This document shows, one piece after another, positions 5,811 to 60,500 of a DNA stretch of 64,000 nucleotides. Every line of letters begins with the position of its first letter. Position 1 is the first letter of the stretch. The position numbers were made by a program, and so were the translations under genes. Source of the stretch: Rhizobium leguminosarum bv. trifolii WSM1325 (GTDB taxonomy: Bacteria > Pseudomonadota > Alphaproteobacteria > Rhizobiales > Rhizobiaceae); assembly GCA_000023185.1 (NCBI GenBank), contig CP001627.1, positions 124,001-188,000 of the forward strand, written 5' to 3'. The notes under the pieces were generated by a model. It made no database searches and was not told the origin of the DNA. It saw only the letters and a list, made by a program, of their open reading frames with translations.

Positions 5811-5814
5811 GTAC

Positions 5815-7094: not shown

Positions 7095-7117
7095 TCTGAG
7101 CGCAATGGAGGAGTATC

Positions 7118-8044: not shown

Positions 8045-8053
8045 TCACTGAGC

Positions 8054-8080: not shown

Positions 8081-8108
8081 TGTTTGGTACAGTTTTGTGC
8101 CTCTTGCC

Positions 8109-13893: not shown

Positions 13894-13944
13894 GCTCATT
13901 CCTTGATGCATATTCCGTAAGACGAAGGTTCTGCCCTCGTCAGG

Positions 13945-17397: not shown

Positions 17398-17426
17398 GGC
17401 GAGGACCTCGCGCTAAAACGTCGGGA

Positions 17427-17489
17427 GGACCGCGGGGTTTCATCCCACGGTCCCGGCTTCGTTGGAGATCAGAGGGGCAAACGTCCCCT
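17427..17489. terminator. Two stem-loops between binding-protein and permease genes
   Basis: GGACCGCGGG-GTTTCAT-CCCACGGTCC (17427-17453, one mismatch) and AGGGG-CAAACGT-CCCCT (17473-17489) lie in the gap downstream of the binding-protein gene. Such structures often stabilise the binding-protein message or let only part of transcription continue into the permeases. No T-run follows, so partial attenuation or processing is more likely than full termination. Confidence 0.5.
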
Positions 17490-17494
17490 TGCCA

Positions 17495-19084: not shown

Positions 19085-19202
19085 TCCCCAGTTCCTTCTT
19101 TATGGTGCGTTGACAGAACTTCCGGGCAGGTCCGCAGACGGTTTCCTCTCCACCTCCGGTGCCCGCATCATGCGGGAAAATAATGCGGTTGCCGCCGCCT
19201 GG

Positions 19203-19985: not shown

Positions 19986-19991
19986 CCTATG

Positions 19992-22046: not shown

Positions 22047-22050
22047 CGGC

Positions 22051-43867: not shown

Positions 43868-44221
43868 TCAGGCAGTGTCGTCTTCGAATATTTTGACGGG
43901 CCGGTCCCACTGGATGAGCACGACACAGCCGGTCTCGCTCCAGACCGAATGTTCGCTGCCCGGTGCATTGACGATATAACTGCCGCTGATGTAATCGCCC
44001 GTCTCGTCGGATTGAACGCCATCGAGCACCAGGATGGTCTCGAGCCCCTCGTGGCGATGGCGGGGAACCGAAGCGCCGGGCTCATATTTCAGCAGCGCCA
44101 CGCCCGGCTGATCGCCCTCGAAGGGGCGGATCCAGTGAATGGTGACAGCATCGCGGAAAGGGCCGAATTCCAACTCCTTCCAGCCGCCTGAGGTCAGGCG
44201 TTCGCGGGTCGTTTCAGGCAT
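43868..44221 (-). CDS. Small cupin-domain protein (ChrR-like fold)
   Basis: 117-residue single cupin. Seen: VALLKYEPGASVPRHRHEGLETILVLDG within 41-68, carrying the metal-ligand pattern HRHEGLE, and a second motif SYIVNAPGSEHSVWSETG near 81-98. Its start overlaps the hydrolase gene by eight bases and it is the last gene of the nine-gene operon from 52432. Could be a small dioxygenase, isomerase or metal-dependent accessory for the pathway; role unknown. Confidence 0.8.
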   Translation of the reverse strand: MPETTRERLTSGGWKELEFGPFRDAVTIHWIRPFEGDQPGVALLKYEPGASVPRHRHEGLETILVLDGVQSDETGDYISGSYIVNAPGSEHSVWSETGCVVLIQWDRPVKIFEDDTA

Positions 44222-44885
44222 GGGCGATGCTTTCCAGAATGTCGTCGATATGGGCGGTCCAGCCGACGATCGCGCCCTGGGCGCGGATCATGGCGATGGC
44301 GGCGGCTTTGAATTCGGGGAAATAGCTTTCCGTGGCCTCCTCGGCGAGCAGGCATTCATAGCCGCGGTCGTTTGCTTCGCGCATCGTCGTCTGCACGCAG
44401 ACTTCGGTGGTGACACCGGCAAAGACGAGCTGACGTATGCCCTTCTGCTGCAACACGGTGCCGAGGTCGGTCGCGTAGAAGGCGCCCTTGCCGGGTTTTT
44501 CGATGACGACTTCGCCCTTCACCGGAGCGAGCTCCGGAAGAATTGCCGTGCCGGGTTCGCCCGAGATCAGGATGCGGCCCATCGGGCCTTCGTCGCCGAT
44601 CCTGAGCGCAGGATTGCCGCGGTCGCGTTTGGCCGGTGGCAGGTCGGAGAGATCAGGCCGGTGGCACTCCATCGTATGGATCACAGGCAGGCCGGCATTG
44701 CGGAAGCCCTGGATGAGGCGTTTGACATCGGGCACGATCCTGGTGATGCGGCTGACATCGTTGCCGAGGCTGGCGCCGAATCCGCCCGGCTCGGCGAAAT
44801 CGCGCTGCATGTCGATGACGATGAGGGCGAGCTCATCGTGTTTCACCGGAAAGGCGAAGGGTTCTGCCTTGATCCCCATCATCAA
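44214..44885 (-). CDS. Isochorismatase-family cysteine hydrolase, paralog of biuret hydrolase
   Basis: 223-residue amidohydrolase with the family triad: Asp in ALIVIDMQRDFAEPGG near 19-34, Lys in IEKPGKGAFYATDLG near 126-140, Cys in [24 protein letters not shown] near 155-178. It is clearly related to the biuret hydrolase at 47489 in the same operon (shared PGKG.F.ATDL and [14 protein letters not shown] blocks). The start overlaps the ATPase stop (ATGA). A second amide of the same pathway, for example a ureido or formyl-urea intermediate, is the natural guess. Peroxyureidoacrylate-type activity is another option. Confidence 0.85.
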   Translation of the reverse strand: MMMGIKAEPFAFPVKHDELALIVIDMQRDFAEPGGFGASLGNDVSRITRIVPDVKRLIQGFRNAGLPVIHTMECHRPDLSDLPPAKRDRGNPALRIGDEGPMGRILISGEPGTAILPELAPVKGEVVIEKPGKGAFYATDLGTVLQQKGIRQLVFAGVTTEVCVQTTMREANDRGYECLLAEEATESYFPEFKAAAIAMIRAQGAIVGWTAHIDDILESIAHA

Positions 44886-46432
44886 TGATGCCCCGCCATG
44901 TGGGCGCCGATCACGCCGATATCGGCCGAACGCGCCGGTGTCTCGTAAACCAGCTTGCCTTCCGAAATGACCATGATGCGGTCGGACATCTCGAGCAGTT
45001 CGTCGAGGTCTTCCGAAAGCAGCAGCACGGCGGCTCCCAAATTGCGGGCCTTCATGATCCGGGCGCGGATTTCGGCAACGGCCGAGAAATCGAGGCCGAA
45101 ACAGGGGTTGGAGACTATCAGCAGATCGACATCGCCGGTCAGTTCGCGGGCGAGCACCGCCCGCTGCACGTTGCCGCCCGAGAGCGCTGCGATCGGCGAG
45201 GAGGAAGAGGCCGTCTTGACCTTGAAGTCGGAGATCAGCGCCGAGGCACGCTTCTTCATGCTGCCCTTGTTCAGCCAGATCGCGTCCTTGCCGTCCAGCT
45301 TCAAATCGAAGGTGCGGAACGCAAGGTTCTCGCTCACGGTCATCTTGGGCGCACAGGCATTCTGCAACGGCTCTTCGGGGATGAAACGCACCCTGTTCTT
45401 GCGGGTCTCCTCACGGGTGGCGCCGTAAGTCTCGCCATTGACCATGACCTGGCCGCTATCGGTCGGGCGCTGGCCGGCCAGAATTTCCGTCAGCTCCTTC
45501 TGGCCGTTGCCGGATATGCCGGCGATGCCGACGATCTCACCGGAGCGGACCGTCAGCGCGTCGATCTCGATCGTCTTCAGGCCGGAGCGATCCGGAGCTT
45601 TCACCTGGGTCACAGTGAGCACGGATTTGGCCGCTTCCGCCACCGGCAGACGGCTGTCGAGCTCGGCGAGCTTGACGTCGCCGATCATCATCGCCGCCAT
45701 CTCGGCGGTGGAGAGCTCGCCGACCTTGCCGGTGCCGACCAGCTTGCCGCGCCGCAGGATCGAGACGGCATCAGCGAACTTCGTCACCTCGTGGAACTTG
45801 TGGGAGATCATCAGCACGGTGAGCTCGCCGCGCTCGGTCATCCCGCGGACGATGCCGAGCATCTCATCGGCTTCGGCCGGCGTCAGCACCGAGGTCGGCT
45901 CGTCGAGGACGAGGAAGGAACGGCCGAGATAGAGCTGCTTGACGATTTCGAGCTTCTGTTTTTCGCCGGCGGCAAGCTCGCTCACCGGCCTGTCGAGCGG
46001 GATCTTGAACGGCATGCGCTCCATGAAAGCCGCCAGATCCTTGCGTTCCCTGGGCCAGTTGATCACCGCGGGCACTTCGGTGCGGCTGATGACCAGGTTT
46101 TCCGCACCGGTCAGAGAGGGAACCAGTGTGAAATGCTGGTAGACCATGCCGAGCCCATAGGTCGCGGCATCCTTGGGTGAGGCGACCGCCACCTCGCGGC
46201 CGTCGACCGACAACGAGCCTGACGTGGCGTGATAGAAGCCCATGATGCATTTGACGAGCGTCGACTTGCCGGCGCCGTTTTCGCCGAGAAGCGCGTGAAA
46301 AGAGCCGGCCGGAACGGCGATCGAGACGTTGTCGAGCGCGGTGAAGCTGCCGAAACGCATGGTCATATCGAGCGTCTCGATGCCGACGGCCTTGCCGGCT
46401 TGCGGAAGGGGCGTGTCGCGGACTGTGCTCAC
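44882..46432 (-). CDS. BMP-type (nucleoside/nucleobase) ABC transporter ATPase
   Basis: 516-residue double ATPase of the YufO/NupA group. Domain 1 (about 15-255): Walker A GENGAGKSTLVK, unusual signature ELAAGEKQKLEIVKQL, Walker B FLVLDEPTSVLTPAEAD. Domain 2 (about 265-510): degenerate Walker A GISGNGQKELTEIL, signature ALSGGNVQRAVLAREL, and SNPCFGLDFSA in place of a normal Walker B, so only the first site is likely fully active. GTG at 46432 chosen: AAGGAG lies seven bases upstream, and the preceding gene's TGA ends one base before. The gene sits between catabolic enzymes rather than next to its permeases. Confidence 0.9.
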   Translation of the reverse strand: MSTVRDTPLPQAGKAVGIETLDMTMRFGSFTALDNVSIAVPAGSFHALLGENGAGKSTLVKCIMGFYHATSGSLSVDGREVAVASPKDAATYGLGMVYQHFTLVPSLTGAENLVISRTEVPAVINWPRERKDLAAFMERMPFKIPLDRPVSELAAGEKQKLEIVKQLYLGRSFLVLDEPTSVLTPAEADEMLGIVRGMTERGELTVLMISHKFHEVTKFADAVSILRRGKLVGTGKVGELSTAEMAAMMIGDVKLAELDSRLPVAEAAKSVLTVTQVKAPDRSGLKTIEIDALTVRSGEIVGIAGISGNGQKELTEILAGQRPTDSGQVMVNGETYGATREETRKNRVRFIPEEPLQNACAPKMTVSENLAFRTFDLKLDGKDAIWLNKGSMKKRASALISDFKVKTASSSSPIAALSGGNVQRAVLARELTGDVDLLIVSNPCFGLDFSAVAEIRARIMKARNLGAAVLLLSEDLDELLEMSDRIMVISEGKLVYETPARSADIGVIGAHMAGHH

Positions 46433-46433
46433 T

Positions 46434-47489
46434 TCATTGCTCCTTTTCGACGATGATGGCGACGGGACCGCCGCCGGGCGGACCCTGGTGTTCGGCGCCG
46501 CCGGACACATAGAGATCGGTAATGCCGAAGATGCCGGCGAGAACGCCGCCGACGAAGGCACGGGCATGGCGGGTGCCTGCAATATCCGAGTCATCGAGCA
46601 TCGTGTGGCGCCTGCCGTCGATCCTGCCGGACGGGTCCGGCTCGGCCTTGGCGAGAACCGCCGCCAGCCGGCTGTTTTCCGGCAGGCGTTCGCGGGCTTT
46701 CCTGACGGAATGCGCGTCGATCGCATCCAGCATGACCGCGTGGTCGATCGACAGCGGACCGGACCATTTTGCGCTCATGCCGAGGACGATGATTTCGTGA
46801 TCGGTGAGTTCGCCCCCGGACGAGGTTGAGGCGCAGCGGGAAAAGAGATCGAAACGTGTGCAGATGTCGGCATCGCCGATCGATGTCGCATCTATCTCGC
46901 CGAGTGCCACGGCGACGCCGAGAGCCGAAGCGCCGCGCGAGAGGCCCATGGATTTCAGCGTGTCGTGGGTTGCGACCGTCCTGCCTGCTGCCTCGGCCTC
47001 GGCAATCCGGCGCGAGGTGAGCAGCGGACACTTGATCTGCACGAAATGGACATCGGCGGGATCATCGATGCCGGCATCCCTCATCGCGGACTTCACGCCT
47101 TCGGCAACGAGCAGGATCTGTTCCCGGCGCCCGAGATGTTCGGGGGGCAGCGCGGGGGTACGCGACACACCAATGGCCAGCGCCCGTTCGCCCGGGGTTT
47201 CTACGGTTTCACGCGCAAAAACCGTCCAATGCGGCGAGAGCGCCCCCTCGGTGCCGCCGGACATGATGATCGAGACGCCGTCGACGCCATATCTACTGAA
47301 CAATGTCTCGAAGCTGCGGGTGGCATAACCGCGGGTAAAATCATTGACGCAGCCGTTGCCTTCCGTCTTGCCGAGAACGGCGACGACGTTGTTCGCCTGA
47401 AGGCCGCTGGCAAAGAGCGCCTCGACGCCGGCAACGTCATCGGGGCCGTCGGCTGGCACGCGAAAGACATGGGCACGCAATGACGGCAT
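46434..47489 (-). CDS. Cyanuric acid amidohydrolase / barbiturase family ring-opening enzyme
   Basis: 351-residue member of a small family with three repeated domains, each with a Ser-Lys dyad. Seen: LGKTEGNGCVNDFTRG near 39, SIIMSGGTEGALSPHWTVF near 78-96 (first Ser), QIKCPLLTS near 157, SRGASALGVAVALGE near 188, RCASTSSGGELTDHEIIVLG near 220-239 (second Ser), and C-terminal YVSGGAEHQGPPGGGPVAIIVE (third Ser). Hydrolyses cyanuric acid to carboxybiuret (then biuret) or barbiturate to ureidomalonate. Its start overlaps the biuret-hydrolase stop as TGATG; that neighbour favours a triazine substrate. I cannot distinguish the two activities from sequence alone. Confidence 0.9.
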   Translation of the reverse strand: MPSLRAHVFRVPADGPDDVAGVEALFASGLQANNVVAVLGKTEGNGCVNDFTRGYATRSFETLFSRYGVDGVSIIMSGGTEGALSPHWTVFARETVETPGERALAIGVSRTPALPPEHLGRREQILLVAEGVKSAMRDAGIDDPADVHFVQIKCPLLTSRRIAEAEAAGRTVATHDTLKSMGLSRGASALGVAVALGEIDATSIGDADICTRFDLFSRCASTSSGGELTDHEIIVLGMSAKWSGPLSIDHAVMLDAIDAHSVRKARERLPENSRLAAVLAKAEPDPSGRIDGRRHTMLDDSDIAGTRHARAFVGGVLAGIFGITDLYVSGGAEHQGPPGGGPVAIIVEKEQ

Positions 47490-48193
47490 CAGGGCAGCGC
47501 CTCGACTAGAGCCGCGGAATTGGAGACCGAGCCGAAGACGCCGCCCTGCATCTTCACCATCTTGATCGCGGCGAGGTGGTTTCCGTAGTCGGTCGCACCG
47601 CAGCAGTCCTCCAGAAGTAGGCATTCGTAGCCGCGGTCGTTTGCCTCGCGCATCGTCGTCGAAACGCAGACATCGGTGGTGATCCCCGTGAGGATAATGT
47701 TCTCGATGCGCTTCTGGTTGAGGATGAGTTCGAGGTCGGTGGCGCAGAACGAACCCTTGCCGGGCTTGTCGATGATCGTCTCGCCTTCGATCGGGTAGAG
47801 TTCGGGGATGATGTCCCAGCCCGGTTCGCCACGCGTCAGGATTCGGCCGCAGGGGCCGGCATCACCGATGCCGGCGCCGATCCGCTGCGAGCGCCAGCGT
47901 TTGTTGGCCGGCAGATCGGCGAGGTCCGGGCGGTGGCCCTCGCGGGTGTGGATGATGTGGTAGCCCTTGGCCCGCATGGCGGCAAGCACGCGTTTGATGG
48001 GTTCGATCGGCGCCTGCACCAGCGACAGGTCGTAGCCCATATGGTCGACATAGCCGCCCTTGCCGCAGAAATCCGTCTGCATGTCGATGATGATGAGGGC
48101 GGTGTTATCAGGCCTCAGAGCGCCATTATAGGGCCACGGATACGGATCGGCGTCGATAAAATGCCCGTTGGTTTCGACCATCGCGTCCATCAT
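47489..48193 (-). CDS. biuH: Biuret amidohydrolase
   Basis: 234-residue isochorismatase-fold cysteine hydrolase converting biuret to allophanate and ammonia. Seen: N-terminal [18 protein letters not shown], catalytic Asp in [20 protein letters not shown] near 32-51, [21 protein letters not shown] near 83-103, Lys in [15 protein letters not shown] near 138-152, Cys in [20 protein letters not shown] near 166-185. From memory this matches the structurally characterised R. leguminosarum enzyme almost residue for residue, including the [11 protein letters not shown]-terminus. Start at 48193 (or ATG at 48190) behind AGGAGAG. No allophanate hydrolase is in this window. Confidence 0.92.
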
Positions 48194-48201
48194 TCTCTCT
48201 C

Positions 48202-49218
48202 CTATTCCGCGGCAGGTTTGAGGGGTTCGCCGTAACGGCGCATCGGCTTGTCAAATCCGCAGGACGTGCCGTCCTTGACCTTTATCTCGTCTTCCCATGG
48301 CAGGCGGTATTTGCCGGCGATAAGGTCGTGCATGTAGGTGTAGGGCGCATCCTGCGCGCCGCCGGCGACGGCGACGTAGCCGCGATGACCGAACTGGTAG
48401 ATATTATTCTCCACGCCCCAGCCGAGCCGGGCCTCGCGAACGAGATCGGGACGCACCTCCGCGGTGATGATCTCGTTGACGCGGCCGGAGGTTCCGTGGG
48501 CGATGATCGTGCCATCGAAATTGCAAATCATGCCTTCACCCATGGAATCGAACGTTCCGTCCGAGCCACACATGCAGACATTCGCGGTGATCATCAGGTT
48601 GCAGAAGGCGTTGGCCTGGTTGGTGAAGCACCAGGCATCGCGGATCGGCGCCGTGTAGCCGGCTGTGCGGATCATGATTTCGGCGCCCTTGTAGGCGCAT
48701 TCGCGCGCCATCTCCGGGAACATGCCGTCATGGCAGATGATCAGAGCGAGCTTCGCGCCCCGCGGGCCCTCGATGACAGGGATGCCAAGATCGCCGGGCT
48801 CCCAGGGCTCGACGGGGATCCAGGGATGCATCTTGCGGTAATAGAGCTTCAACTCGCCCTGATCGTCGATGACGATGCCGGAGTTGTAGGGCATGGCGCC
48901 AGGGTTCAGCTCCATGATCGAGAAGCAGCCCCAGATCCGGTTGTCCCTGCAGGCCTGCTTGAAGGCCGCGACCTCCGGCCCGTCGAGCGTGCACATGATC
49001 TCCGGATTGATGTCCATGGAAAGGCCATGCAGCGCGTATTCGGGAAAGACGACGAGGTCCATGCCCGGCTGGTTGCGCCGCGCTTTGGCCACCAGATCAA
49101 CGATCACCTGCGTCTGTTTTGCCAAGTCCGCTTTGGTAACGGTCACCGGCAGCTGGAGCTGCACCAGGCCGATACCGACGCCGTGTTCGGATTTGTTGAG
49201 ACCGCCAAGTCCGTTCAT
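48202..49218 (-). CDS. Formamidase / aliphatic amidase (nitrilase superfamily, AmiF-AmiE type)
   Basis: 338-residue amidase with an intact Glu-Lys-Cys triad: Glu in [16 protein letters not shown] near 54-69, Lys in [19 protein letters not shown] near 127-145, Cys in [17 protein letters not shown] near 159-175. Length and the [17 protein letters not shown] segment fit formamidase (formamide to formate and ammonia). Twelve bases separate it from the permease gene and eight from biuret hydrolase. In this operon it may act on formamide or a formylated ring-cleavage product. Short-chain aliphatic amidase is the alternative. Confidence 0.9.
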
Positions 49219-49230
49219 CGAAAGGCTCCG

Positions 49231-50157
49231 TTATTTCGTGAGCGAGAGCGCACCCGGCGCACCGGCGAGCGAACGGGTGGGCGAGGAGGTGGCGATCAGG
49301 ATGATGAGGGTGAGCACGTAAGGCGCGGCGTAAAAAAGGTAGTAGCCTTGCGTGACGCCGACCGATTGCAGCGCCGGGCCGAGCGCGCCAGCACCGCCGA
49401 AAAGCAGGGCAGCGAGAAAGCAGCCGATCGGATTCCAGCGAGCGAAGATGACGAGAGCCACCGCCATCAGGCCCTGACCCGACGAGATGCCTTCGTTCCA
49501 GGATCCCGGATAGTAGAGCGAGAGATAGGCGCCGCCGATTGCCGCCAGCGAACCGCCCACTGCCGTTGCCAGCAAGCGAACCCGGTCCGGATGGATGCCC
49601 ATGGCCCGGGCCGCGTCGGTGCTGTCGCCGACGACGCGCAGGATCAGGCCGATGCGGGTATTCTTGAAGGCCCAGAACAGGAAGAGGGCAAGTGCCGCGC
49701 CGATGAAGAACAGCACGTTGATATTGAGCGCCGCCTGGACTTGCGGAGTGCTCGACCAGCCGCCGAGCGGGATCGAGGGCAGTTTCGGGGCAACCGGCTG
49801 GATGAAGGATTTGCCGAGGAAGAACGCCATGCCGAGACCGAACTGCATCATGGCGATGCCGATGGCGATATCGTTGACCTTGGGGAACTTGCAGATCCAG
49901 CCGTGGATGAGGCCGAAGATCGCGCCTGCCACCATGGCAGCCAGCACGCCGAGGGTCGGCGAGCCGGTCATGACGGCCACAGCATAGGCCGTCATGGCGC
50001 CGAAGACGAGCGTGCCTTCGAGGCCGAGATTGATGCGGCCGGAGCGTTCGGTGATCGCCTCGCCGAGGCTGACGAAGATGAAGGGGGTGGAAACGCGGAT
50101 GGCGCCGGCGAAGATCGCCAGCGGCACGCCCCAGATGCCGATGCCTGTCTCTTCCAT
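49231..50157 (-). CDS. BMP-type ABC transporter permease, subunit 2
   Basis: 308-residue inner-membrane protein with eight to ten spans. Seen: FIFVSLGEAITERSGRINLGLEGTLVFGAMTAYAVA near 30-64, the family hallmark (ERxGxxNLGxEG), and GLILRVVGDSTDAARAMGIHP near 186-206. Starts overlapping the partner permease stop as TGATG. Paired with 50157-51284. Confidence 0.92.
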   Translation of the reverse strand: MEETGIGIWGVPLAIFAGAIRVSTPFIFVSLGEAITERSGRINLGLEGTLVFGAMTAYAVAVMTGSPTLGVLAAMVAGAIFGLIHGWICKFPKVNDIAIGIAMMQFGLGMAFFLGKSFIQPVAPKLPSIPLGGWSSTPQVQAALNINVLFFIGAALALFLFWAFKNTRIGLILRVVGDSTDAARAMGIHPDRVRLLATAVGGSLAAIGGAYLSLYYPGSWNEGISSGQGLMAVALVIFARWNPIGCFLAALLFGGAGALGPALQSVGVTQGYYLFYAAPYVLTLIILIATSSPTRSLAGAPGALSLTK

Positions 50158-51284
50158 CAGAGGCTCCTTTTCCAGAGGTCGGGATTGAAGATCTTGAAGC
50201 GGCCGTAGAAGGTCTCGCAGAAGAGAATGACGATGAAGAGCGTCCCCTGCAGCACCAGAACCGTAGCATCCGGCAGGCCCATGCGCCGCTGGATGAGGCC
50301 GCCCGAGGCGTCGATGCCACCGAGCAGGATCGCGACCGGAATGATCGCCAGCGGATTGTGCCTGGCGAGGAAGGCGACGAGGATACCGGTATAACCGTAG
50401 CCGGCGGCAAGCGAGGCGTTGGCACTTCCCTGCACCGCCGCCACTTCGATCATGCCCGCCAGACCGGCAAAGCTGCCGGCAAGCGCGGTAAATCCGGCAA
50501 TCAGCTTGCCCACCGGCAGCCCCTGGATCTGCGCGGCGCGCACGTTGCCGCCGGCGATGCGGGCGGCAAAACCATAGCTCGTCGCCTCGATCACGATCCA
50601 GGAGATCATGCAGGCGAGGATGCCGATGACGAGGCCCCAATGCACGTCCATGCCGGGAATGTTGCCGAGCATGTAGTCCGCCGGCAGCGGCCTGGTCGAC
50701 GGCTTGTTGAGGCTTGCAGGATCGCGCAGCACCCCTTCGACAAACTGGTTCATCAGGGCGATGGCGATATAGGAGAGCAGCAGCGACGAAATGGTTTCAT
50801 TGACGCCGCGATAGTGCCGCAGGAAACCGGCAAGGCCGATCCAGATGCCGCCGACCACCATGGCAGCGATTGCCATCAGAATGAGAGTGAGGAAAACAGG
50901 CGCGGTGCCGGCGAGCGGCAGAGCCATGGCTGCGGCGGCAACGCCGCCCAGCACGACCGCTCCTTCCCCGCCGATGATGACGAGGCCGAGACGGGCGGGC
51001 AGGGCGACGCAGAGTGCCGTCAGGAGAAGGGGTGCGGCACGACTTAAGCTGTTCTGCACCGAAAACCAGCTGCCGAAACCGCCGGTATATATCAGTTGGA
51101 AGAGGGTGGCCGGCGACTTGCCGACCGCCAGGATGAAGAGGGAGAAGAGCGCAAGACCGATCAGGATGGCCGCGAGGCCGATGACAACAGGCTCGGCTCG
51201 CCGCGCGATCCATTCGAAGATGGGGCGCAGCGACACCGGTTTTTCCGTGATGGCTATTGCGGGATCATTGGCCTCGATGGTCAT
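50157..51284 (-). CDS. BMP-type ABC transporter permease, subunit 1
   Basis: 375-residue inner-membrane protein. Seen: a first span PVVIGLAAILIGLALFSLFILAVG near 32-55, LTALCVALPARLGLVIIGGEGAVVLGGVAAAAMAL near 93-127, RGVNETISSLLLSYIAIALMNQFVEG near 159-184, and FAARIAGGNVRAAQIQGLPVGK near 236-257. Typical of YufP/NupP-type nucleoside importer permeases. 20 bases downstream of the binding-protein gene. Confidence 0.92.
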   Translation of the reverse strand: MTIEANDPAIAITEKPVSLRPIFEWIARRAEPVVIGLAAILIGLALFSLFILAVGKSPATLFQLIYTGGFGSWFSVQNSLSRAAPLLLTALCVALPARLGLVIIGGEGAVVLGGVAAAAMALPLAGTAPVFLTLILMAIAAMVVGGIWIGLAGFLRHYRGVNETISSLLLSYIAIALMNQFVEGVLRDPASLNKPSTRPLPADYMLGNIPGMDVHWGLVIGILACMISWIVIEATSYGFAARIAGGNVRAAQIQGLPVGKLIAGFTALAGSFAGLAGMIEVAAVQGSANASLAAGYGYTGILVAFLARHNPLAIIPVAILLGGIDASGGLIQRRMGLPDATVLVLQGTLFIVILFCETFYGRFKIFNPDLWKRSL

Positions 51285-51304
51285 GGCGCTTCTCCCTTCG
51301 CGGT

Positions 51305-52432
51305 TTATGCCGTGGACCCGGCGACGCCCTCGACCAGATAATTCATGCTCTCGAGCTCGATCGCGTCTTCGGCGTAGCTCTTGTCGGCAGCCACGACGGT
51401 GTCGCCCTTATTGTCCTTCAACGGTCCCTTGAAGACCGAGAAGCCGCCCTTCATCATCTCAGCCTGCGTGGCTTCGAAGGCCTTGCGGCCCTCTGCCGAC
51501 ACGGCGGGACCGAGCGCGCTCATCTTCACGAAGCCGTCCTTCAGGCCGCCGCGCACGAAGTTGCCGAGCTTTTCGCCGGCCTGCGCCTTCTTGACGAAGT
51601 CGCTGTAGACGTTCCCCCAGGCCCATTCGGCGCCGGTCAGGTATTTTTCCGGAGCAAGCGGGCTCTGGTTGGCGTGATAGCCGCAGACGAAGGCGCCGCG
51701 GCCGGCGGCCGTCTCGACGACCACTTTGGGGCTGTCGACGTGGCAGGTGATGACGTCGACGCCCTGGTCGACCAAGGCGTTGGTGGCTTCGGCCTCCTTG
51801 ACGGCGAGCGACCATTCGCCGGTGAAGATCACCTGGCAGGTGATACCAGGATCGACTGCGCGCGCTCCAAGCAGGAAGGCGTTGATATTCTGCAGAACCT
51901 GCGGGATCGGCTTGGCGGCGACGAAGCCGATCTTCTTGCTCTTCGTCGCATGGCCGGCGGCAATGCCGTTCAGATACTGGCCCTGGAAGATATAGCCGAA
52001 ATAGGAGCCGGTGTTCGCCGGGTTCTTGCCCTCCTGCCAGAGGCCGCCGCAGTGGCGGAACTGGATGTCGGGATGTTTGGCGGCCACGGCCAGCATGTGC
52101 GGGTCGAAGTAGCCGAAGGAGGTCGGAAAGAGCAGGGTCGCGCCATCCAGGTTGATCATGGATTCCATCGTCTTCTGGACGTCGACGGTTTCCGGCACAT
52201 TCTCTTCTTCGACCAGCGTCACGCCCGATAGCGCCTTGACCACGGCTGCACCTTCCGCATGCGCCTGGTTGTAGCCGTAGTCGTCCTTAGGACCGACATA
52301 GATGAAGCCCACGGTCAGCGCTGTTTGGGCTGCGGCGGAGGAGGCGATCAGGCCGGGCATGGCGCCGGCAAGCGCACCGGCAGCGGAAGCCTGGAGGAAA
52401 TTACGGCGGTTCATGGAAAGGAGTTTGGTCAT
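51305..52432 (-). CDS. BMP-family (PnrA/Med-like) substrate-binding protein
   Basis: 375-residue periplasmic protein. Seen: Tat-type signal MNRRNFLQASAAGALAGAMPGL near residues 7-28 with AAA-Q cleavage, then VGFIYVGPKDDYGYNQAHAEG near 40-60, FPTSFGYFDPHMLAVAAKHPDIQFRHCGG near 100-128, NTGSYFGYIFQGQYLNGIAAGHATKSKKIGFV around 137-168, CHVDSPKVVVETAAGRG. BMP proteins bind purine nucleosides or related rings. ATG at 52432 follows AAGGAGCATTCCG. First gene of the operon. Ligand predicted to be a nucleobase-like ring such as cyanurate or an oxidised purine product. Confidence 0.9.
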   Translation of the reverse strand: MTKLLSMNRRNFLQASAAGALAGAMPGLIASSAAAQTALTVGFIYVGPKDDYGYNQAHAEGAAVVKALSGVTLVEEENVPETVDVQKTMESMINLDGATLLFPTSFGYFDPHMLAVAAKHPDIQFRHCGGLWQEGKNPANTGSYFGYIFQGQYLNGIAAGHATKSKKIGFVAAKPIPQVLQNINAFLLGARAVDPGITCQVIFTGEWSLAVKEAEATNALVDQGVDVITCHVDSPKVVVETAAGRGAFVCGYHANQSPLAPEKYLTGAEWAWGNVYSDFVKKAQAGEKLGNFVRGGLKDGFVKMSALGPAVSAEGRKAFEATQAEMMKGGFSVFKGPLKDNKGDTVVAADKSYAEDAIELESMNYLVEGVAGSTA

Positions 52433-52477: not shown

Positions 52478-52568
52478 AAAGTGCATGCAATGCATGTGCC
52501 AGAAATTAATCTATTGTTTTTTATAGTTTATCCGCCCAGCAAGATCTGTGCATTGCAAAGTGCATGCA
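52478..52568. promoter_or_regulatory. Repeated AAAGTGCATGCA sites between the BMP operon and GntR gene
   Basis: The 12-mer AAAGTGCATGCA occurs at 52478-52489 and 52557-52568, 79 bases apart. The first is inside CATGCA-A-TGCATG, a 13-base palindrome (52484-52496); the second is next to GTGCATTGCA (52549-52558). Spanning the promoter of the operon that starts at 52432, these are probable operators for the divergent GntR regulator. The rest of the 337-base gap is AT-rich with no gene. Confidence 0.6.
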
Positions 52569-52769
52569 GATTGATCGAATCTTTGCGTAAAAAGTAATCA
52601 ATAGATATTTCTTGTTCATTGTTACTGCGCGATTGGCATAAATTCGGATTTCCTGAGGTGCTCGTGCATCGGAAAGCGAAAATTTAACAATATCTTCGCC
52701 ACTAGATTTGACTTATCGAGTCTCGAACCGCATCTGTATGCAGAATGTTGACGTGAGCAGATTCGTATC

Positions 52770-53444
52770 GTGAAGCAGACCAGGCGCAGAGAAGTGATCC
52801 GTACCGGAACCACCGTCGAACAGATGGTGCGAGCGATTGCCGACATGATCGTCACGGGGGAAATCCTGCCCGGCGCGAAATTGGACGAGGTGTCGCTCGC
52901 GGTTCGTTTTGACGTTTCGCGCACGCCGGTACGCGAGGCTCTGCGTGAGCTGGGCGCCATGGGATTGATTGCGCGCGAGCCGAACCGCAGTGCCGTCGTG
53001 ACCAATGTCACCGAGGCTTATCTGCATTCGATGTTCGAAGCGATGGCCGAACTCGAAGCGATCTGCGCCAGGCTCTCGGCCGAGCGTATGACGGTCGATG
53101 AGCGGCGCGCGCTGGAGCTGGAGCATCGGGAATCGGTGAGGCTCGTGCATGCCGGTGCGGAAGAAGAATATTCGGCTCACAATACCGACTTTCACACCCG
53201 GCTTTATCGCGGCGCGCACAATGATCATGTCTTCGAGATGGTCACGCAGACGCGGGCGCGCCTCGCGCCCTTTCGGCGGGCGCAGTTCCGTCTGCCCGGG
53301 CGCCTGGCAAAATCCTATGAGGAGCACGGCCGGATCGTCACCGCGATCATGCGCGCGGACGCCGCCGCCGCCGGGCAGGCGGCATATTCCCATGTGGAAA
53401 TTGTCAGCGATGCCAGCGCGGTCTTTGCAACGCCCGGGGAGTAA
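52770..53444 (+). CDS. GntR-family regulator, FadR/FCD subfamily
   Basis: 224-residue regulator. Seen: winged HTH TTVEQMVRAIADMIVTGEILPGAKLDEVSLAVRFDVSRTPVREALRELGAMGLIAREPNRSAVV within 14-78, then an FCD ligand domain (MFEAMAELEAICARLSAERM near 87-106; HNTDFHTRLYRGAHNDHVFEMV near 134-155) with the metal-binding His/Asp pattern. Start is GTG at 52770 with only a weak ribosome site. Divergent from the cyanurate/biuret operon, which it likely represses; the ligand would be a pathway acid. Confidence 0.88.
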   Translation: MKQTRRREVIRTGTTVEQMVRAIADMIVTGEILPGAKLDEVSLAVRFDVSRTPVREALRELGAMGLIAREPNRSAVVTNVTEAYLHSMFEAMAELEAICARLSAERMTVDERRALELEHRESVRLVHAGAEEEYSAHNTDFHTRLYRGAHNDHVFEMVTQTRARLAPFRRAQFRLPGRLAKSYEEHGRIVTAIMRADAAAAGQAAYSHVEIVSDASAVFATPGE

Positions 53445-53526: not shown

Positions 53527-54324
53527 CTACTCCGCCGCTTCGATGAAGCGGTGGCGTTCGTAGAGGAACTTCAGCACGGCTTCACGGCATTTGAGATAGG
53601 TCCGGTCGGAGGCGAGTTCGATGCGATTGCGGGGGCGGGGCATGGTCACATCGAGCACTTCGCCGATGCGGGCCGCCGGACCGTTGGTCATCATCACGAT
53701 GCGATCGGACAGCAGCACCGCTTCATCGACGTCATGGGTGATCATCACCATGGTGTTGCCGAGGCGAGCGTGGATCTCCATCACCGCATCCTGAAGATGG
53801 GCGCGGGTCAGCGCATCGAGCGCGCCGAAGGGCTCGTCGAGCAGCAGGATCTTCGGCTCCATTGAAAGCGCGCGGGCAATGCCGACGCGTTGTTTCATGC
53901 CGCCTGAAATTTCCGAAGGCCGCTTATCCCTCGCATGCGCCATCTGCACGAGGTCGAGGTTGGCCATGACCCAGTCATGCCGTTCGGCCTTGGTCTTCGT
54001 TCGGTTGAAGAGTTTGGAGACGGCGAGATTGACGTTCTCGTAGACCGTCAGCCAGGGCAGCAGCGAGTGGTTCTGGAAGACGACGGCGCGCTCCGGGCCG
54101 GGTCCGTTGACCTCACGGTTTTCAAGGAGCACGGCGCCTGCCGATACCGGAGTCAGGCCGGCGATGAGGTTGAGCAGGGTGGATTTGCCGCAGCCCGAAT
54201 GGCCGATGATCGAGACGAATTCGCCCGCGGAAATCGTCAGGTTGATGTCCTTCAGGACTTCGGCGCGTACGCCGCCCCGATCGAAATGTTTGTCGATATG
54301 GTCGAGCTTCAGATAGGCGTTCAT
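53527..54324 (-). CDS. Nitrate/taurine-type ABC transporter ATP-binding protein
   Basis: 265-residue ATPase of the NrtD/SsuB/TauB group. Seen: Walker A GHSGCGKSTLLNL near 39-51, Q-loop VFQNHSLLPWLT near 82-93, signature EISGGMKQRVGIARAL near 140-155, Walker B LLLDEPFGALDALTR near 161-175, and switch His ITHDVDEAVLL. The PERAVVFQNHSLLPWLTVYENV segment is characteristic of nitrate importers. ATG at 54324, 12 bases after the permease stop. Last gene of the three-gene importer. Confidence 0.9.
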   Translation of the reverse strand: MNAYLKLDHIDKHFDRGGVRAEVLKDINLTISAGEFVSIIGHSGCGKSTLLNLIAGLTPVSAGAVLLENREVNGPGPERAVVFQNHSLLPWLTVYENVNLAVSKLFNRTKTKAERHDWVMANLDLVQMAHARDKRPSEISGGMKQRVGIARALSMEPKILLLDEPFGALDALTRAHLQDAVMEIHARLGNTMVMITHDVDEAVLLSDRIVMMTNGPAARIGEVLDVTMPRPRNRIELASDRTYLKCREAVLKFLYERHRFIEAAE

Positions 54325-54335
54325 AGGAGCGTTCC

Positions 54336-55229
54336 TCAGTTGGCCATGGCGCCGCGCGTGATGAGTTTGCCGAGTGCTGCCACCAGTTTGTCGAGGGCGA
54401 AGCCGACGATGCCGATATAGGCGAGCGCGACGATGATGTCCGGAAGGCGCGACGAGTTCCATGCGTCCCAGATGAAGAAGCCGATGCCGACGCCACCCGT
54501 CAGCATTTCGGCCGCGACGATGGCGAGCCAGGAAAGGCCGACGCCGATCCTGAGGCCGGTGAAGATGTAAGGCGCTGCCGAAGGCAGCATGATCTTCCAG
54601 AAAAACTCGAACTGGTTGAGCCGCAGCACCTCGGCGACATTGCGGTAATCCTGCGGGATATTGCGGACGCCAACGGCGGTGTTGATGATCACCGGCCAGA
54701 TCGAAGTGATGAAGATCACGAAGATCGCCGAAGGATTGGAATCCTGGAAGGCTGCGAGCGACAGCGGCAGCCAGGCGAGCGGCGGAACCGTACGCAGCAC
54801 CTGGAAGATCGGATCGAGGCCACGCATTGCCCAGACCGACTGGCCGATGATCGCACCGATTATGACGCCGGTGACCGCGGCAAGCCCAAAGCCATAGAGA
54901 ACGCGCTGCAGCGAAATGAGCACGCGCCAGCCGAGCCCGATATCCTGGGAGCCATAGTTGAAAAACGGATAGGCGATCAGGTCATAACTATCCAGCCAGA
55001 CCCGATGCGGCGAGGGTAAAGACGCATCCGCCGATGAGCAGAGCACCTGCCAGACGAGCAGGATGAGTGCCAGCACGACGACTGGCGGAACGACGTTGCG
55101 AAGTGCGGTCAGTGCCGCTCGACGAAAATCGATCCGCGATCCATGCTTGCCGGAAAATGGCAGAACCTTTGCCGCCAGCTTGGCGGAGGCAGACGTTGAG
55201 GGAATTTCTTTATTTGCCAGGGCGGACAT
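54336..55229 (-). CDS. Nitrate/taurine-type ABC transporter permease (NrtB-like)
   Basis: 297-residue inner-membrane protein with six spans. Seen: VVPPVVVLALILLVWQVLC near 47-65, SLQRVLYGFGLAAVTGVIIGAIIG near 106-129, VLRTVPPLAWLPLSLAAFQDSNPSAIFVIFITSIWPVIINTAVGVRNIPQDYRNVAEVLR around 144-204 (EAA loop), SWLAIVAAEMLTGGVGIGFFIWDAWN. ATG at 55229 preferred over GTG at 55244 because GAGGAG is eight bases upstream of it. The SDPxxP-free, WPVIINTAVG pattern is NrtB-like. Confidence 0.9.
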   Translation of the reverse strand: MSALANKEIPSTSASAKLAAKVLPFSGKHGSRIDFRRAALTALRNVVPPVVVLALILLVWQVLCSSADASLPSPHRVWLDSYDLIAYPFFNYGSQDIGLGWRVLISLQRVLYGFGLAAVTGVIIGAIIGQSVWAMRGLDPIFQVLRTVPPLAWLPLSLAAFQDSNPSAIFVIFITSIWPVIINTAVGVRNIPQDYRNVAEVLRLNQFEFFWKIMLPSAAPYIFTGLRIGVGLSWLAIVAAEMLTGGVGIGFFIWDAWNSSRLPDIIVALAYIGIVGFALDKLVAALGKLITRGAMAN

Positions 55230-55285
55230 CAACGCGCTCCTCACGGGAATGAAAGGCCGGCGCGCCCGTTGCGCGCCGGAGCGGG

Positions 55286-56599
55286 TCAGGAGACAGCCTT
55301 GATCGAAAGGCTGTCGAGATAGGCCGAAGGATTTTCAGGGTCGAAGACCTTGCCGTCGAAGAAAGTCTCCTTGCCGCGAGAAGACGATGCGGGGATATCG
55401 GCCGCCGCGACGCCGAGATCCTTGGCGGCCTCGCGCCAGATGTCTTCACGGTTCACCTGGTTGACCAGCGCCTTGATGTCGGTGCTCGCCGGCAGATTTC
55501 CCCAACGGATGTTTTCCGTCATGAACCATGTGTCGTGGCTCTTGAACGGATAGGAGGCGCCGTCTTTCCAGAACTTCATATAGAGGTCGGTGGCCTTGAC
55601 CTCGCGGCCATTGCCATAATTGATGTCGCCCTTGAGGCGGCCGAGCACGTCCTTGGTCGGAACGTTGAACCATTGGCGCTTGCCGAGAATGTCAGCCATC
55701 TCCGCCTTGTTGTCCATGCTTTCGCACCACTGCTGCGCCTCCATGACAGCCATCAGCAGGGCCTTGGCAGCATTGGGATTCTTTTCGATCCATTCGGCGC
55801 GCAGTCCGAGCGCCTTTTCAGGATGACCCTTCCAGAGCTCGCCGGTGGTGGCTGCGGTAAAGCCGATGCCCTGGTTGACGAGCTGCTCATTCCACGGTTC
55901 GCCGACACAGAAGACGTCCATGTTGCCGACCTTCATGTTGGCAACCATCTGCGGCGGCGGCACGACGATGGTCGAAACGTCCTTGCTCGGATCAATGCCG
56001 CCGGCGGCGAGCCAGTAGCGGATCCAGAGGTCATGGGTGCCGCCCGGGAAGGTCATGGCGGCCTTGATCTCCTTGCCCTCCGCCTTCTTCTTCTCGAATG
56101 CCGCCTTCAGCTTGGAGGAATCGAGCTGCACGCCGGTGTCGGCATATTCCTTGGCGACGGAAATGCCTTGGCTGTCGAGGTTGAGCCGCGCGAGGATTGC
56201 CATCGGCACCGGCTTATTGTTCTGCGTCACCTTGCCGGTATGCATGAGATAGGGGAGCGGCGACAGGATATGCGCACCGTCGATGCCGTTTGCGGCGCCA
56301 CCCAGCACGAGGTTGTCGCGGGTCGCACCCCAGGAGGCCTGTTTGGCCACATCCGTTTCCGGAAGGCCATGCTTGTCGAAAAAGCCCTTTTCCTTGGCGA
56401 TGATCAGCGGCGCGGAATCGGTGAGAGCGATAAAACCGAGCTTGACGCCCTTCACCTCAGGGCCTGCTCCGGCTGCGAAGGCGCCGGATGGAAAGGCCGT
56501 CTTGACAGCGCCGATGAGGGCAGCCGCTGCAGTCGTCTTGAGCATGCTGCGGCGGGTAATGCCGGTTGTCGAAATCCCAGTCTGCAAATTCTTAGTCAT
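55286..56599 (-). CDS. CmpA/NrtA-family substrate-binding protein
   Basis: 437-residue periplasmic binding protein. Seen: Tat signal ITRRSMLKTTAAAALIGAV near 14-32, KLGFIALTDSAPLIIAKEKGFFDKHGLPETDVAKQASWGATRDNLVLGGAANGIDGAHILSPLPY within about 56-120, MTFPGGTHDLWIRYWLAAGGIDP near 184-206, VGNMDVFCVGEPWNEQLV near 220-237, and TENIRWG near 350. These are the core of nitrate- and bicarbonate-binding NrtA/CmpA. ATG at 56599. Nitrate, nitrite or a small organic anion such as cyanate is likely. It sits between the two nucleobase-type operons, consistent with a nitrogen-acquisition island. Confidence 0.9.
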   Translation of the reverse strand: MTKNLQTGISTTGITRRSMLKTTAAAALIGAVKTAFPSGAFAAGAGPEVKGVKLGFIALTDSAPLIIAKEKGFFDKHGLPETDVAKQASWGATRDNLVLGGAANGIDGAHILSPLPYLMHTGKVTQNNKPVPMAILARLNLDSQGISVAKEYADTGVQLDSSKLKAAFEKKKAEGKEIKAAMTFPGGTHDLWIRYWLAAGGIDPSKDVSTIVVPPPQMVANMKVGNMDVFCVGEPWNEQLVNQGIGFTAATTGELWKGHPEKALGLRAEWIEKNPNAAKALLMAVMEAQQWCESMDNKAEMADILGKRQWFNVPTKDVLGRLKGDINYGNGREVKATDLYMKFWKDGASYPFKSHDTWFMTENIRWGNLPASTDIKALVNQVNREDIWREAAKDLGVAAADIPASSSRGKETFFDGKVFDPENPSAYLDSLSIKAVS

Positions 56600-56968
56600 G
56601 CGCAGGTTCCCTCTGCTGGCTGAATTTGGACACAAAAAAACGCCGCCGGAAATTGCGTCCAGGGGATGGGAGAATCCCGGAGCAAAAACCTTGCGACGTC
56701 GGTGTCTATTGTAGGCGCTTATGCCGCGCCTATCCGCACCGGTCGCCGTTGACCGATGCGTATCTGAACCTGCAATCGGCGTGCCAATTCTGCAGGATGC
56801 TGGTAACAGATTGAAGTAAAAAGAGAAACCCGAAGAATTCGCGAGTGCCTATACTTTAGGCATGATTGCTTTGTGCCGAGGTTTTGTGCGACTGCTGCTA
56901 TGTGCGCGGTCGTGAGAGCGCCTATTTGTGCAGCGCACGCGCGCCGCGCCGTCCCGCAACACCGAAGA
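56600..56968. other. 369-base gap upstream of the NrtA-type operon
   Basis: No convincing gene. It holds the ribosome site and presumably the promoter of the binding-protein gene (minus strand) and the trailer of the permease gene ending at 56969. A short run of A/T-rich sequence at 56810-56870 is the most promoter-like part. I see no clear nitrogen-regulatory (sigma-54) promoter motif. Confidence 0.4.
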
Positions 56969-57880
56969 CTACCGCTCGAATGGCTCGCCGAGCGAAGCGA
57001 CGCCGTTCAGTTTCAACAGGCGGCGGTCGGCGGAGATGATGCCGAGCACGATGATCGTGACCAGATATGGCAGGCTCGAGAGCAGTTGCGAGGGAACGTC
57101 CAGTCCGGTTGCCTGGGCTGCAAGCCCCATCAGCGAGACTGCGCCGAAGAGGCAGGCGCCGAGGAAGATACGGCCGGTGAGCCAAGTCCCGAAGACGACG
57201 AGGGCAATCGCGATCCAGCCGCGCCCGGCAATCATCCCATCGGCCCAGAGTGGTGTATAGACCACCGACGCATAGGCGCCGGCGAAGCCGGCCATCGCGC
57301 CGCCGAAGGCGATGGCGAGGACGCGGACTGAGATTACCGAATAGCCGATGGCGTGAGCGGCCTTGGGATTCTCGCCGACGGCGCGGACGATGAGGCCAAG
57401 CTTGGTGTAGGCAAATATGGCCCACAAAGCGAGGGTCGCGGCGAGTGAAATCCACACGACGATGTCCTGGACGAACAGGCCGCCGACAACCGGCAGTTCC
57501 GAAAGCCCGGGAAGGCCAAGCTTCGGCAGTCCCCTGACCGTGAGGCTTTCATAGGTCTTGCCGAAAAGCGCGGAAAGGCCCTGGCCGAGAATGCCGATGG
57601 CAAGCCCCGCCGCCACCTGGTTTGCCCGGAAACCCAGCGTGACGAAGGCGAAGAGCAGCGAAAGGACCGCGCTGCCGAGCCCGGCGACGACGAAACCCAG
57701 GAGATGTCCGCCGCCCTGGTAGACGATAATGAAAGCGAGCACGGCACCGAAGGCCATCAATCCCTCGACCCCGAGGTTGAGGACGCCGGCGCGCTCGGCC
57801 ACCAGCTCGCCAAGGGCTGCCAGAAGAAACGGTGTCGCAGCCGCGAGCATGCCGGCAAGAATGAACTCGATGGCGTTCAT
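56969..57880 (-). CDS. BMP-type ABC transporter permease, second importer, subunit 2
   Basis: 303-residue inner-membrane protein. Seen: PFLLAALGELVAERAGVLNLGVEGLMAFGAVLAF around 17-50, the family hallmark, LGFRANQVAAGLAIGILGQGLSALFG near 83-108, and LIVRAVGENPKAAHAIGYSVISVR near 170-193. ATG at 57880 overlaps the partner permease stop as ATGA; the upstream in-frame extension to 57910 is rejected. Last gene of this importer operon (63665-or-beyond to 56969). Confidence 0.92.
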   Translation of the reverse strand: MNAIEFILAGMLAAATPFLLAALGELVAERAGVLNLGVEGLMAFGAVLAFIIVYQGGGHLLGFVVAGLGSAVLSLLFAFVTLGFRANQVAAGLAIGILGQGLSALFGKTYESLTVRGLPKLGLPGLSELPVVGGLFVQDIVVWISLAATLALWAIFAYTKLGLIVRAVGENPKAAHAIGYSVISVRVLAIAFGGAMAGFAGAYASVVYTPLWADGMIAGRGWIAIALVVFGTWLTGRIFLGACLFGAVSLMGLAAQATGLDVPSQLLSSLPYLVTIIVLGIISADRRLLKLNGVASLGEPFER

Positions 57881-58977
57881 GATGGGCTCCGGTGGGCGGC
57901 GCGGCGCCATTCAAGGCGATAGCGCACGAAGGCGACGGCAATCAGGTAAGTGAGCAGCAGACTGCCCTGGAAGACACGGACGGCGGCGATCGGCAGGTTG
58001 GCCGAGACCATGGCATTGTCGCCGCCGATATAGATGACCGCCATGACCAGCGCCGAGATCACGATGCCGATCGGATGCAGGCCACCGAGATAGGCGACGA
58101 TGATGGCCGCATAGCCATAGCCGCTCGCGACCGAACGCTGCAGCTGGCCGAGCGGACCGGCGACTTCGGCGGCCCCCGCAAGACCGGCTGCAAAACCGCC
58201 GATCAGCAGCGAAAGCCAGATCGCCCACCCTTCCTTAAAGCCGGCATAGCCGGCAGCTCGCGGCGCCAGACCGCCGACTTGCAGCTTGTAACCGATGAAG
58301 CTCCTCTGCATGAAGACCCAGGCCGCAACCGACAAAGCGAGCGTGATGAGGAACGAAACATTGACGCGGGTACCGGCAATCAGGGTCGGTACCATCGCAT
58401 CGTACTGGAACATCACCGACTGGGGGAAGTTGAAGCCGTTCGGATCCTTCCAGGGGCCGAGCAGCAGATAGTTCAGCAGCTGCGCCGCGACGAGGCTCAG
58501 CATCAGGGAAACGAGAATCTCGTTGGCGTTGAGGCGCACGCGCCAGAAGGCGGTGAGAGAAGCCCAAAGTGCGCCGCCGATGGCGCCGAGCAGCAGCATC
58601 GCCGGCCAGATCCACTGGCCCGTCGCCTGCGGAAACCAGACCGGAATGGCAGAGGCGAAGATCGCGCCGAGAATGAATTGGCCTTCGGCGCCGATGTTGA
58701 AGACCTTGGCGCGAAAGCCGATCGCCAGTCCCTGTGCGATCAGAAGGAGCGGGCCTGCTTTTAGCAGCACTTCCGAAAATGAGGCCCAGGAAAGGAAGGG
58801 CTCGAAGAGCATCGCATAAATGACCGCGACAGGGTCACGGCCCATCAAAATGTAAAGTCCGAGGTTGAGCGCGACCGCTATGACAAGTGCTATGACGGGC
58901 GCGAGCAAGGTCGCGGCAAGCGAAGCGCGCTCCCGGCGGACCAGGGTGGGAACGAAAGCAAGGGACCAAGCACTCAT
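57877..58977 (-). CDS. BMP-type ABC transporter permease, second importer, subunit 1
   Basis: 366-residue inner-membrane protein. Seen: LAATLLAPVIALVIAVALNLGLYILMG near 21-47, AIGFRAKVFNIGAEGQFILGAIFAS near 85-109 (hallmark NIGAEGQ), LNANEILVSLMLSLVAAQLLNYLLLGPWKDP near 150-180, and LAPRAAGYAGFKEG near 235. ATG at 58977 (or GTG 58980) overlaps the ATPase TGA as TGATG. Confidence 0.92.
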   Translation of the reverse strand: MSAWSLAFVPTLVRRERASLAATLLAPVIALVIAVALNLGLYILMGRDPVAVIYAMLFEPFLSWASFSEVLLKAGPLLLIAQGLAIGFRAKVFNIGAEGQFILGAIFASAIPVWFPQATGQWIWPAMLLLGAIGGALWASLTAFWRVRLNANEILVSLMLSLVAAQLLNYLLLGPWKDPNGFNFPQSVMFQYDAMVPTLIAGTRVNVSFLITLALSVAAWVFMQRSFIGYKLQVGGLAPRAAGYAGFKEGWAIWLSLLIGGFAAGLAGAAEVAGPLGQLQRSVASGYGYAAIIVAYLGGLHPIGIVISALVMAVIYIGGDNAMVSANLPIAAVRVFQGSLLLTYLIAVAFVRYRLEWRRAAHRSPS

Positions 58978-60497: not shown

Positions 60498-60500
60498 GAC

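Follow-up and report, generated by a model that had tools for sequence, protein, structure and literature searches.

A predicted import and hydrolysis operon for biuret-like nitrogen compounds, with a BiuH-linked formamidase, in Rhizobium leguminosarum bv. trifolii WSM1325

Introduction

In the pathway published for Rhizobium leguminosarum strain 3841, the biuret hydrolase BiuH stands in for AtzE, and production of allophanate by the 3841 enzyme has been demonstrated (Esquirol 2018, PMC5806882; here and below, statements about cited papers refer to the parts of them that we consulted). The same paper reports no atzF near the genes, leaves the fate of allophanate open and lists in its conclusion the AtzD-BiuH pair of strain WSM1325. 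Other points of reference are a triuret operon composed of TrtA, BiuH and AtzF (Tassoulas 2020, PMC7948467) and the atzDGEHF cluster of Pseudomonas ADP. Here we analyse the WSM1325 locus, a group of nine genes at positions 43868-52432 of a 64,000-nucleotide stretch of DNA from the root-nodule bacterium R. leguminosarum bv. trifolii WSM1325 (the window). The core pathway is already known, in a strain named in print for its AtzD-BiuH pair. New here are a sigma-54 promoter with operator-like boxes and, judging from sequence comparisons, a formamidase that apparently forms a separate, BiuH-linked and uncharacterised branch of its family.

Results

Gene content and enzyme identities

We consider it highly probable that the nine genes form an operon for nitrogen starvation, one that takes up planar compounds resembling urea and removes their nitrogen, because family cut-offs, residue agreement, synteny in 80 relatives, the presence of allophanate hydrolase in 77 of the 80 genomes, published pathways and promoter conservation all point in this direction. 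The window belongs to plasmid pR132505; a 10 kb query matches NC_012854.1 with 100% identity. An earlier note, made from the sequence letters alone, had proposed an importer-coupled operon with a formamidase, BiuH, a ring hydrolase, a second isochorismatase and a cupin. Pfam and NCBIfam models recovered all nine genes in place, close-packed on the minus strand and concordant with the reference annotation of pR132505. Because the genes overlap or are separated by no more than 20 bp along the whole unit, as measured from start sites, they are likely to constitute a single operon.

BiuH (47489-48190) scores 428.3 bits against the equivalog model NF050097, for which the cut-off is 370; 6azo and related crystal structures are among its matches. 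It is identical to the strain 3841 protein at 231 of 234 positions (3 differences), so that the crystallised BiuH is a near-identical protein. The triad Asp36, Lys142 and Cys175 is present, as are Lys145 and Gln215, and all 16 of the 16 catalytic or binding residues checked are in place (residue list from PMC5806882).

The adjacent ring hydrolase, AtzD (46434-47489), reaches 539 bits against NF052395 (cut-off 360), and 204 of 343 aligned residues are identical to those of 4nq3, the A. caulinodans enzyme. It retains three Ser-Lys dyads (79/40, 226/156 and 333/285) and Glu230. Its R185 aligns with position 188, where Arg is kept in all but two subgroups of the cyanuric acid hydrolase family and where barbiturases have Gln (PMC4051656); the protein also scores 395 bits to cyanurate hydrolase versus 252 to barbiturase. 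On this sequence evidence the active site is of the cyanurate type. The earlier description of a cyanurate/barbiturate ring hydrolase holds in its first half, with every checked residue and the scores in agreement, and is unlikely in its second, since Arg rather than the Gln of barbiturases occupies position 188. On the same residues and scores we judge a barbiturase or a 5-azauracil hydrolase unlikely.

The second isochorismatase (44214-44882) scores 247 bits on the BiuH model NF050097, below the cut-off of 370. Its best solved relatives are 6xix (281.9 bits) and 6xj4 (277), ahead of 6xjm (217; an entry named biuret hydrolase) and 6azo, the R. leguminosarum BiuH (204.6). We take 6xix and 6xj4 to be TrtA structures, the entries themselves being named only "Cysteine hydrolase". 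The protein carries the triad within D24, K129, K132 and C162, together with Q202, the residue discussed in the TrtA paper (PMC7948467). What had been called simply a second isochorismatase paralog does belong to the isochorismatase family, and the 6xix and 6xj4 matches and Q202 identify it more closely as TrtA-like, probably a triuret hydrolase. The ChrR-type cupin (43868-44221; PF12973, Cupin_7) overlaps the trtA-like gene by 8 bp. As a guess, it is a candidate carboxybiuret decarboxylase; a literature search joining TrtB with cupin found no paper.

The importer comprises a BMP-family substrate-binding protein with a twin-arginine translocation signal (51305-52432; PF02608, PF10518), two ATP-binding cassette (ABC) permeases (50157-51284 and 49231-50157, the start of the latter from the reference annotation; both PF02653) and a sugar-importer-like ATPase with two ATP-binding stretches (44882-46432; PF00005, GTG start, reference coding sequence). 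Among solved structures, the binding protein is closest to 6pi5, the atrazine periplasmic binding protein (212 bits). Given this and the importer that adjoins atzD on the Pseudomonas plasmid pADPe, a cyanurate pathway accompanied by a BMP importer has precedent.

Conservation among relatives

To compare the locus with its relatives, we drew on at least 581 places that encode a relative of BiuH and kept the best 80, all of them with at least 82% identity. The set consists of close relatives, for the most part Rhizobiaceae and Mesorhizobium. Nine of the 80 loci are shorter than 20 kb owing to contig ends, and one (L059) stops just past BiuH, so that some misses reflect truncation. The binding protein and both permeases accompany BiuH in all 80 loci, the ATPase in 79, TrtA in 77, the GntR regulator in 76 and the cupin in 75. 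Less constant are an allophanate hydrolase directly after the cupin (46 loci), the formamidase (32) and an adjacent AtzD (17). In terms of gene content, the conserved unit is a predicted triuret/biuret import and hydrolysis operon (importer, BiuH, TrtA and cupin), to which AtzD and formamidase are optional. On a tree built from 79 loci and the window (80 rows; L059, which lacks the ATPase, was dropped), each of these two genes requires at least nine gain or loss changes. In one locus (L037) all that is left of the formamidase is a stretch of 71 residues, which may point to a recent loss.

These counts bear on the possibility that the operon serves mainly for cyanurate, a herbicide residue. The family and residues of AtzD mark it as a real cyanurate hydrolase, and both the kinship of the binding protein with the atrazine binding protein and the BMP importer adjoining atzD on pADPe fit such a role. 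Counter to this, an adjacent AtzD occurs in 17 of the 80 relatives compared to 77 for TrtA, and we regard a primarily cyanurate-directed operon as improbable.

The same layout recurs in plasmid records of Sulfitobacter, Klebsiella and R. phaseoli, with the formamidase slot between permease and BiuH. On Klebsiella quasipneumoniae pA708-3, a plasmid typed as conjugative, an importer-formamidase-BiuH-TrtA operon with atzF is flanked by insertion-sequence genes.

A formamidase linked to BiuH

The nitrilase-superfamily amidase annotated as formamidase (48202-49218) scores 588 bits against NF009803 (cut-off 406). It carries E60, K129, E137 and C162 unchanged, which we take to be the catalytic Glu-Lys-Glu-Cys positions. 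We compared it with five other formamidases: PDB 2dyu and 5g3o, presumably the H. pylori and B. cereus enzymes, one from a Priestia plasmid and two from Klebsiella plasmids, where they lie beside urea-type importers. The window protein is 43-51% identical to these five, which are 63-89% identical among themselves. BiuH-type and other formamidases fall into separate clades (support 98/94 and 96/93), and the window protein neither groups with the formamidases of known structure nor shares their pocket-side residues. A comparison of the five with 60 BiuH-type rows shows 23 fixed differences, a generous count given that the five represent only about three independent lineages; the 60 rows are also not all distinct, with the window's own protein appearing two times and at least one further pair identical. 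Several of these differences flank a tyrosine, ISGYSTQV versus TAGYTAPI, presumably a residue of the substrate pocket.

The formamidase also accompanies BiuH across the phylum. In an even draw of 398 Pseudomonadota genomes, the formamidase family occurs in 15 and BiuH in 26, and all 15 are among the 26. In other words, 15 of 26 genomes with BiuH have the formamidase versus 0 of 372 others (Fisher p 1.3e-20, with relatedness uncorrected and the WSM1325 genome included). Thresholds were E <= 1e-110 for the formamidase and E <= 1e-90 for BiuH, the best few candidates per genome were scored, and the listed genome handles identify the two counts as coming from the same draw. A class-level draw found the family in 12 of 385 genomes. 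Together the two draws yielded 24 distinct formamidase genomes besides that of the window, and all 24 encode BiuH above the cut-off and at least one second protein of the BiuH family. BiuH is the neighbouring gene in 16 of them and lies within 10 kb in 6; in one the contig ends past the formamidase, and in one the two genes are on separate contigs. Conversely, the genomes of the 48 relatives without an operon formamidase have none above the cut-off elsewhere (one weak match, 275 bits). The earlier suggestion that the formamidase belongs with BiuH is therefore strongly borne out, through linkage to BiuH and TrtA and not to AtzD. A literature search for biuret with formamidase returned one unrelated paper, and an earlier publication of the link could still exist.

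This linkage must be weighed against another account of the gene, namely that it encodes an ordinary formamidase that shares a broad small-amide importer and serves environmental formamide, outside the ureide pathway. The retained Glu, Lys, Glu and Cys positions, with the roles that we assume for them, agree with this, and the other formamidase branch adjoins a urea-type importer in Klebsiella plasmids, so that pairing with an importer appears usual. Against it stand the phylum draw, with the family in BiuH genomes alone, the 24 of 24 sampled genomes that have BiuH, and the 23 fixed differences. We see an ordinary formamidase as a real possibility, although we lean slightly against it.

Formamidase, AtzD and formyl-ureides

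The earlier note had gone further and proposed ring opening of 5-azauracil (allantoxaidine) or a related triazine as the role of the hydrolase, with formylbiuret as the product that the formamidase and BiuH would finish. Arguing for this, the formamidase is present in 14 of the 17 loci with an adjacent AtzD and absent in 3 (Fisher p 0.00013, relatedness uncorrected). On the tree, AtzD and formamidase change the same way in 3.1 of 7 corrected pairs and never in opposite ways; the median p is 0.25, with too few informative pairs for the test to reach 0.05. A different cluster, at 2283-10044 of the plasmid pSR-2 of Skermanella rosea, likewise brings a ring-opening hydrolase of the AtzD type (61% identity) together with a gene of the acetamidase/formamidase family; allantoinase and an amidohydrolase are encoded there too. 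Against it stand the cyanurate-type active site, the higher cyanurate hydrolase score and the 14 of 32 operon-formamidase genomes that have no AtzD at E <= 1e-40. These 14 are found among the 18 such genomes in which AtzD is not adjacent. Moreover, a literature search joining azauracil with cyanuric acid hydrolase found no paper. The ring-opening proposal is not supported by these observations, and we hold it to be quite improbable; the formamidase as an obligate partner of AtzD is rejected on the 14 genomes. Of the 63 genomes with no AtzD next to the operon, the AtzD search covered 50 and found the gene in 5 of them. One genome (L029) has two AtzD-family genes about 6 kb apart, distant from the operon.

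Alternatively, the formamidase may relate to the pathway through formyl-ureides, which are possible substrates of TrtA and BiuH. Formylurea is the best of the alternative substrates that were assayed with TrtA, albeit at only 0.3% of triuret (Table 2 of PMC7948467), and this lends the idea weak support. Loss of ammonia and CO2 from formylurea would give formamide, to be finished by the formamidase. Such a chain retains the formamide-biuret link of the earlier note and drops the ring-opening step. In its fullest form, the "formamidase" would not be a plain formamidase and would found an amidase subfamily of its own that serves the BiuH/TrtA pathway. Formylbiuret would be cut down by TrtA and BiuH to formylurea and then to formylcarbamate, the latter would fall apart to formamide, and the amidase would take the formyl end, as formamide or formylurea, to formate. 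We regard this full version as rather unlikely.

Partner enzymes and the fate of allophanate

No WSM1325 protein passes the AtzE cut-off genome-wide (best 262 versus 425.75), and the annotation of the 40 kb read around the operon lists neither AtzE nor an allophanate hydrolase. An allophanate hydrolase does occur on another replicon, pR132504, where it scores 791 bits against a cut-off of 511 as the sole match above it and adjoins urea carboxylase and a putative urea importer. Thus the view that the usual partner enzymes are absent is right for AtzE in the operon and wrong in its implication, as allophanate hydrolase is encoded on pR132504 and BiuH replaces AtzE in the published pathway. The pR132504 operon (12576-22190 of the stretch read) holds, besides the urea carboxylase, UAAP1 and UAAP2 proteins. 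Gene sets of this kind have been associated with the use of guanidine rather than urea.

Allophanate hydrolase passes the cut-off in 77 of the 80 relatives' genomes (30 of 32 genomes in one search and 47 of 48 further genomes in a second). Strain 3841 also has one, away from the operon; none is annotated near the operon on pRL10 at 310000-379782. The consulted part of PMC7948467 states that the R. leguminosarum operon contains AtzF, and the pRL10 annotation has none in the operon or in that interval.

Could the formamidase substitute for allophanate hydrolase in the operon? It is present in 22 of 34 loci without an allophanate hydrolase after the cupin versus 10 of 46 with one (Fisher p 0.00018, relatedness uncorrected), and two formamidase-bearing genomes (L046 and L057) have no allophanate hydrolase above the cut-off. 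The near ubiquity of allophanate hydrolase in the 80 genomes speaks against substitution, as do the Klebsiella pA708-3 and Sulfitobacter p2 plasmids, where both genes are co-located, and a tree-corrected test, non-significant and underpowered. Since the two enzymes coexist, we judge replacement to be very improbable.

Promoter and presumed regulation

A GntR-FCD family regulator (52770-53444, plus strand; PF00392, PF07729) is encoded divergently from the operon, which it adjoins in 76 of the 80 loci. The 337 bp between it and the binding protein gene contain an exact match to a sigma-54 type -24/-12 element, TGGCAC-N5-TTGC (52487-52501, minus strand). The pattern TGGCAY-N5-TTGC recurs in 75 of 80 loci, no more than 330 bp upstream of the binding protein, and the strict form in 50 of 80; dinucleotide shuffles reach a mean of 0.12 and a maximum of 1 of 80. 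The strict pattern has just two matches in the window (0.18 expected).

Two presumed GntR operators accompany the element: a TGCATGCA box at 52482-52489 (minus strand) that overlaps the -12 element, and a second TGCATGCA box at 52561-52568 (minus strand) upstream of the -24 element. TGYATRCA boxes overlap the -12 element in 73 of the 75 loci with the promoter element; in 73 a box precedes the -24 element by 55-80 bp, and 71 have both. The regulator that binds them is presumably the GntR protein. In the window, a further box, TGCATACA, stands 28 bp away from the start of the GntR gene (52735-52742, minus strand). We infer nitrogen-limited transcription under a GntR repressor from these patterns. 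A classical NtrC site upstream of the promoter is not claimed, as such a dyad occurs in only 12 of 75 loci, and sigma-70 promoters or terminators in the operon are no more frequent than shuffles yield.

The promoter also bears on the start of the binding protein. The sigma-54 element spans an alternative upstream ATG at 52495 and ends just before another at 52486; together with an AAGGAG ribosome site, this conserved element argues that the start at 52432, as previously proposed, is right.

Neighbouring features of the window

The second exact sigma-54 type element (56772-56786, minus strand) lies upstream of nitrate-type importer genes (53527-56599). A second BMP-type ABC importer occupies 56969-61598 (minus strand), and further upstream are genes annotated as amidohydrolase, glutathione S-transferase and ring-hydroxylating dioxygenase. 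No Rfam families (at gathering scores) or transfer RNA genes were found in the window.

Discussion

Our findings suggest the following sequence of events. RNA polymerase with sigma-54 would start transcription at the -24/-12 element, and the divergently encoded GntR protein would repress it at the TGCATRCA boxes. The BMP importer would take up triuret, biuret, cyanurate or relatives. TrtA acting on triuret and AtzD on cyanurate would both give carboxybiuret, which would lose CO2 to form biuret, either spontaneously or with help, perhaps (and here we guess) from the cupin. BiuH would convert biuret to allophanate, and the hydrolase beside urea carboxylase on pR132504 would, judging from its family, complete the degradation. 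AtzD and the formamidase would be optional additions to the importer-BiuH-TrtA unit. The formamidase would most likely act on formamide, or on formamide freed from formyl-ureides.

Several observations weigh against a nitrogen-starvation operon of this kind. The second isochorismatase matched no curated TrtA model, and the pocket-side differences of the formamidase mean that formamide may not be the substrate of its subfamily. Three genomes have no allophanate hydrolase above the cut-off, the formamidase-bearing L046 and L057 and the metagenome-assembled L059, which has no formamidase. The sigma-54 element is missing from the five most distant loci (L091, L095, L096, L097 and L099), three of which are from Alloalcanivorax/Alcanivorax, one from a draft labelled Phycisphaerales and one from an alphaproteobacterial draft. 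Finally, the loci are related, and the dinucleotide shuffles of the promoter pattern leave this shared ancestry uncorrected.

With its core pathway already described, the operon in itself contributes little; three points bring open questions within reach of a test. For the published question of what becomes of allophanate in R. leguminosarum, a candidate gene can now be named, on another replicon, and the conserved sigma-54 promoter with its operator-like boxes makes nitrogen control of the operon directly testable. As the formamidase accompanies biuret hydrolase in the sampled Pseudomonadota, either the name formamidase describes it too narrowly or there is a formyl branch of the ureide pathway that has yet to be described. 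Were the formyl-ureide version true, the operon would recover triuret, cyanurate and formyl-ureides left over from oxidised nucleobases and would not be there for residues of fertilisers or herbicides.

Looking across described systems, the locus agrees most closely with the AtzD-BiuH cluster on pRL10 of strain 3841 (PMC5806882). The two share gene order and the same BiuH, and their DNA is 95.6% identical across the 10 kb that were compared. Neither cluster has an allophanate hydrolase nearby, and nothing essential differs between them; what we add to the published account is the location of the in-trans allophanate hydrolase in both genomes. A TrtA-like and a BiuH-like protein also stand together in the triuret operon of Tassoulas 2020 (PMC7948467), with catalytic residues and Q202 kept. 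WSM1325 differs from that operon in the addition of AtzD and formamidase and in having AtzF on another replicon. With the Urt-linked Klebsiella formamidase, 2dyu and 5g3o, the window protein shares its family, by name and score, and its catalytic positions, while its clade is separate. The atzDGEHF cluster of Pseudomonas ADP (pADPe) has in common with the locus AtzD and an adjacent BMP-type importer. It carries AtzEG, AtzH (annotated HpxZ) and AtzF in cis, together with a LysR-type regulator, and neither BiuH nor TrtA is annotated in the part that was read; WSM1325, by comparison, has no AtzE above the cut-off in its genome and no AtzF in its cluster.

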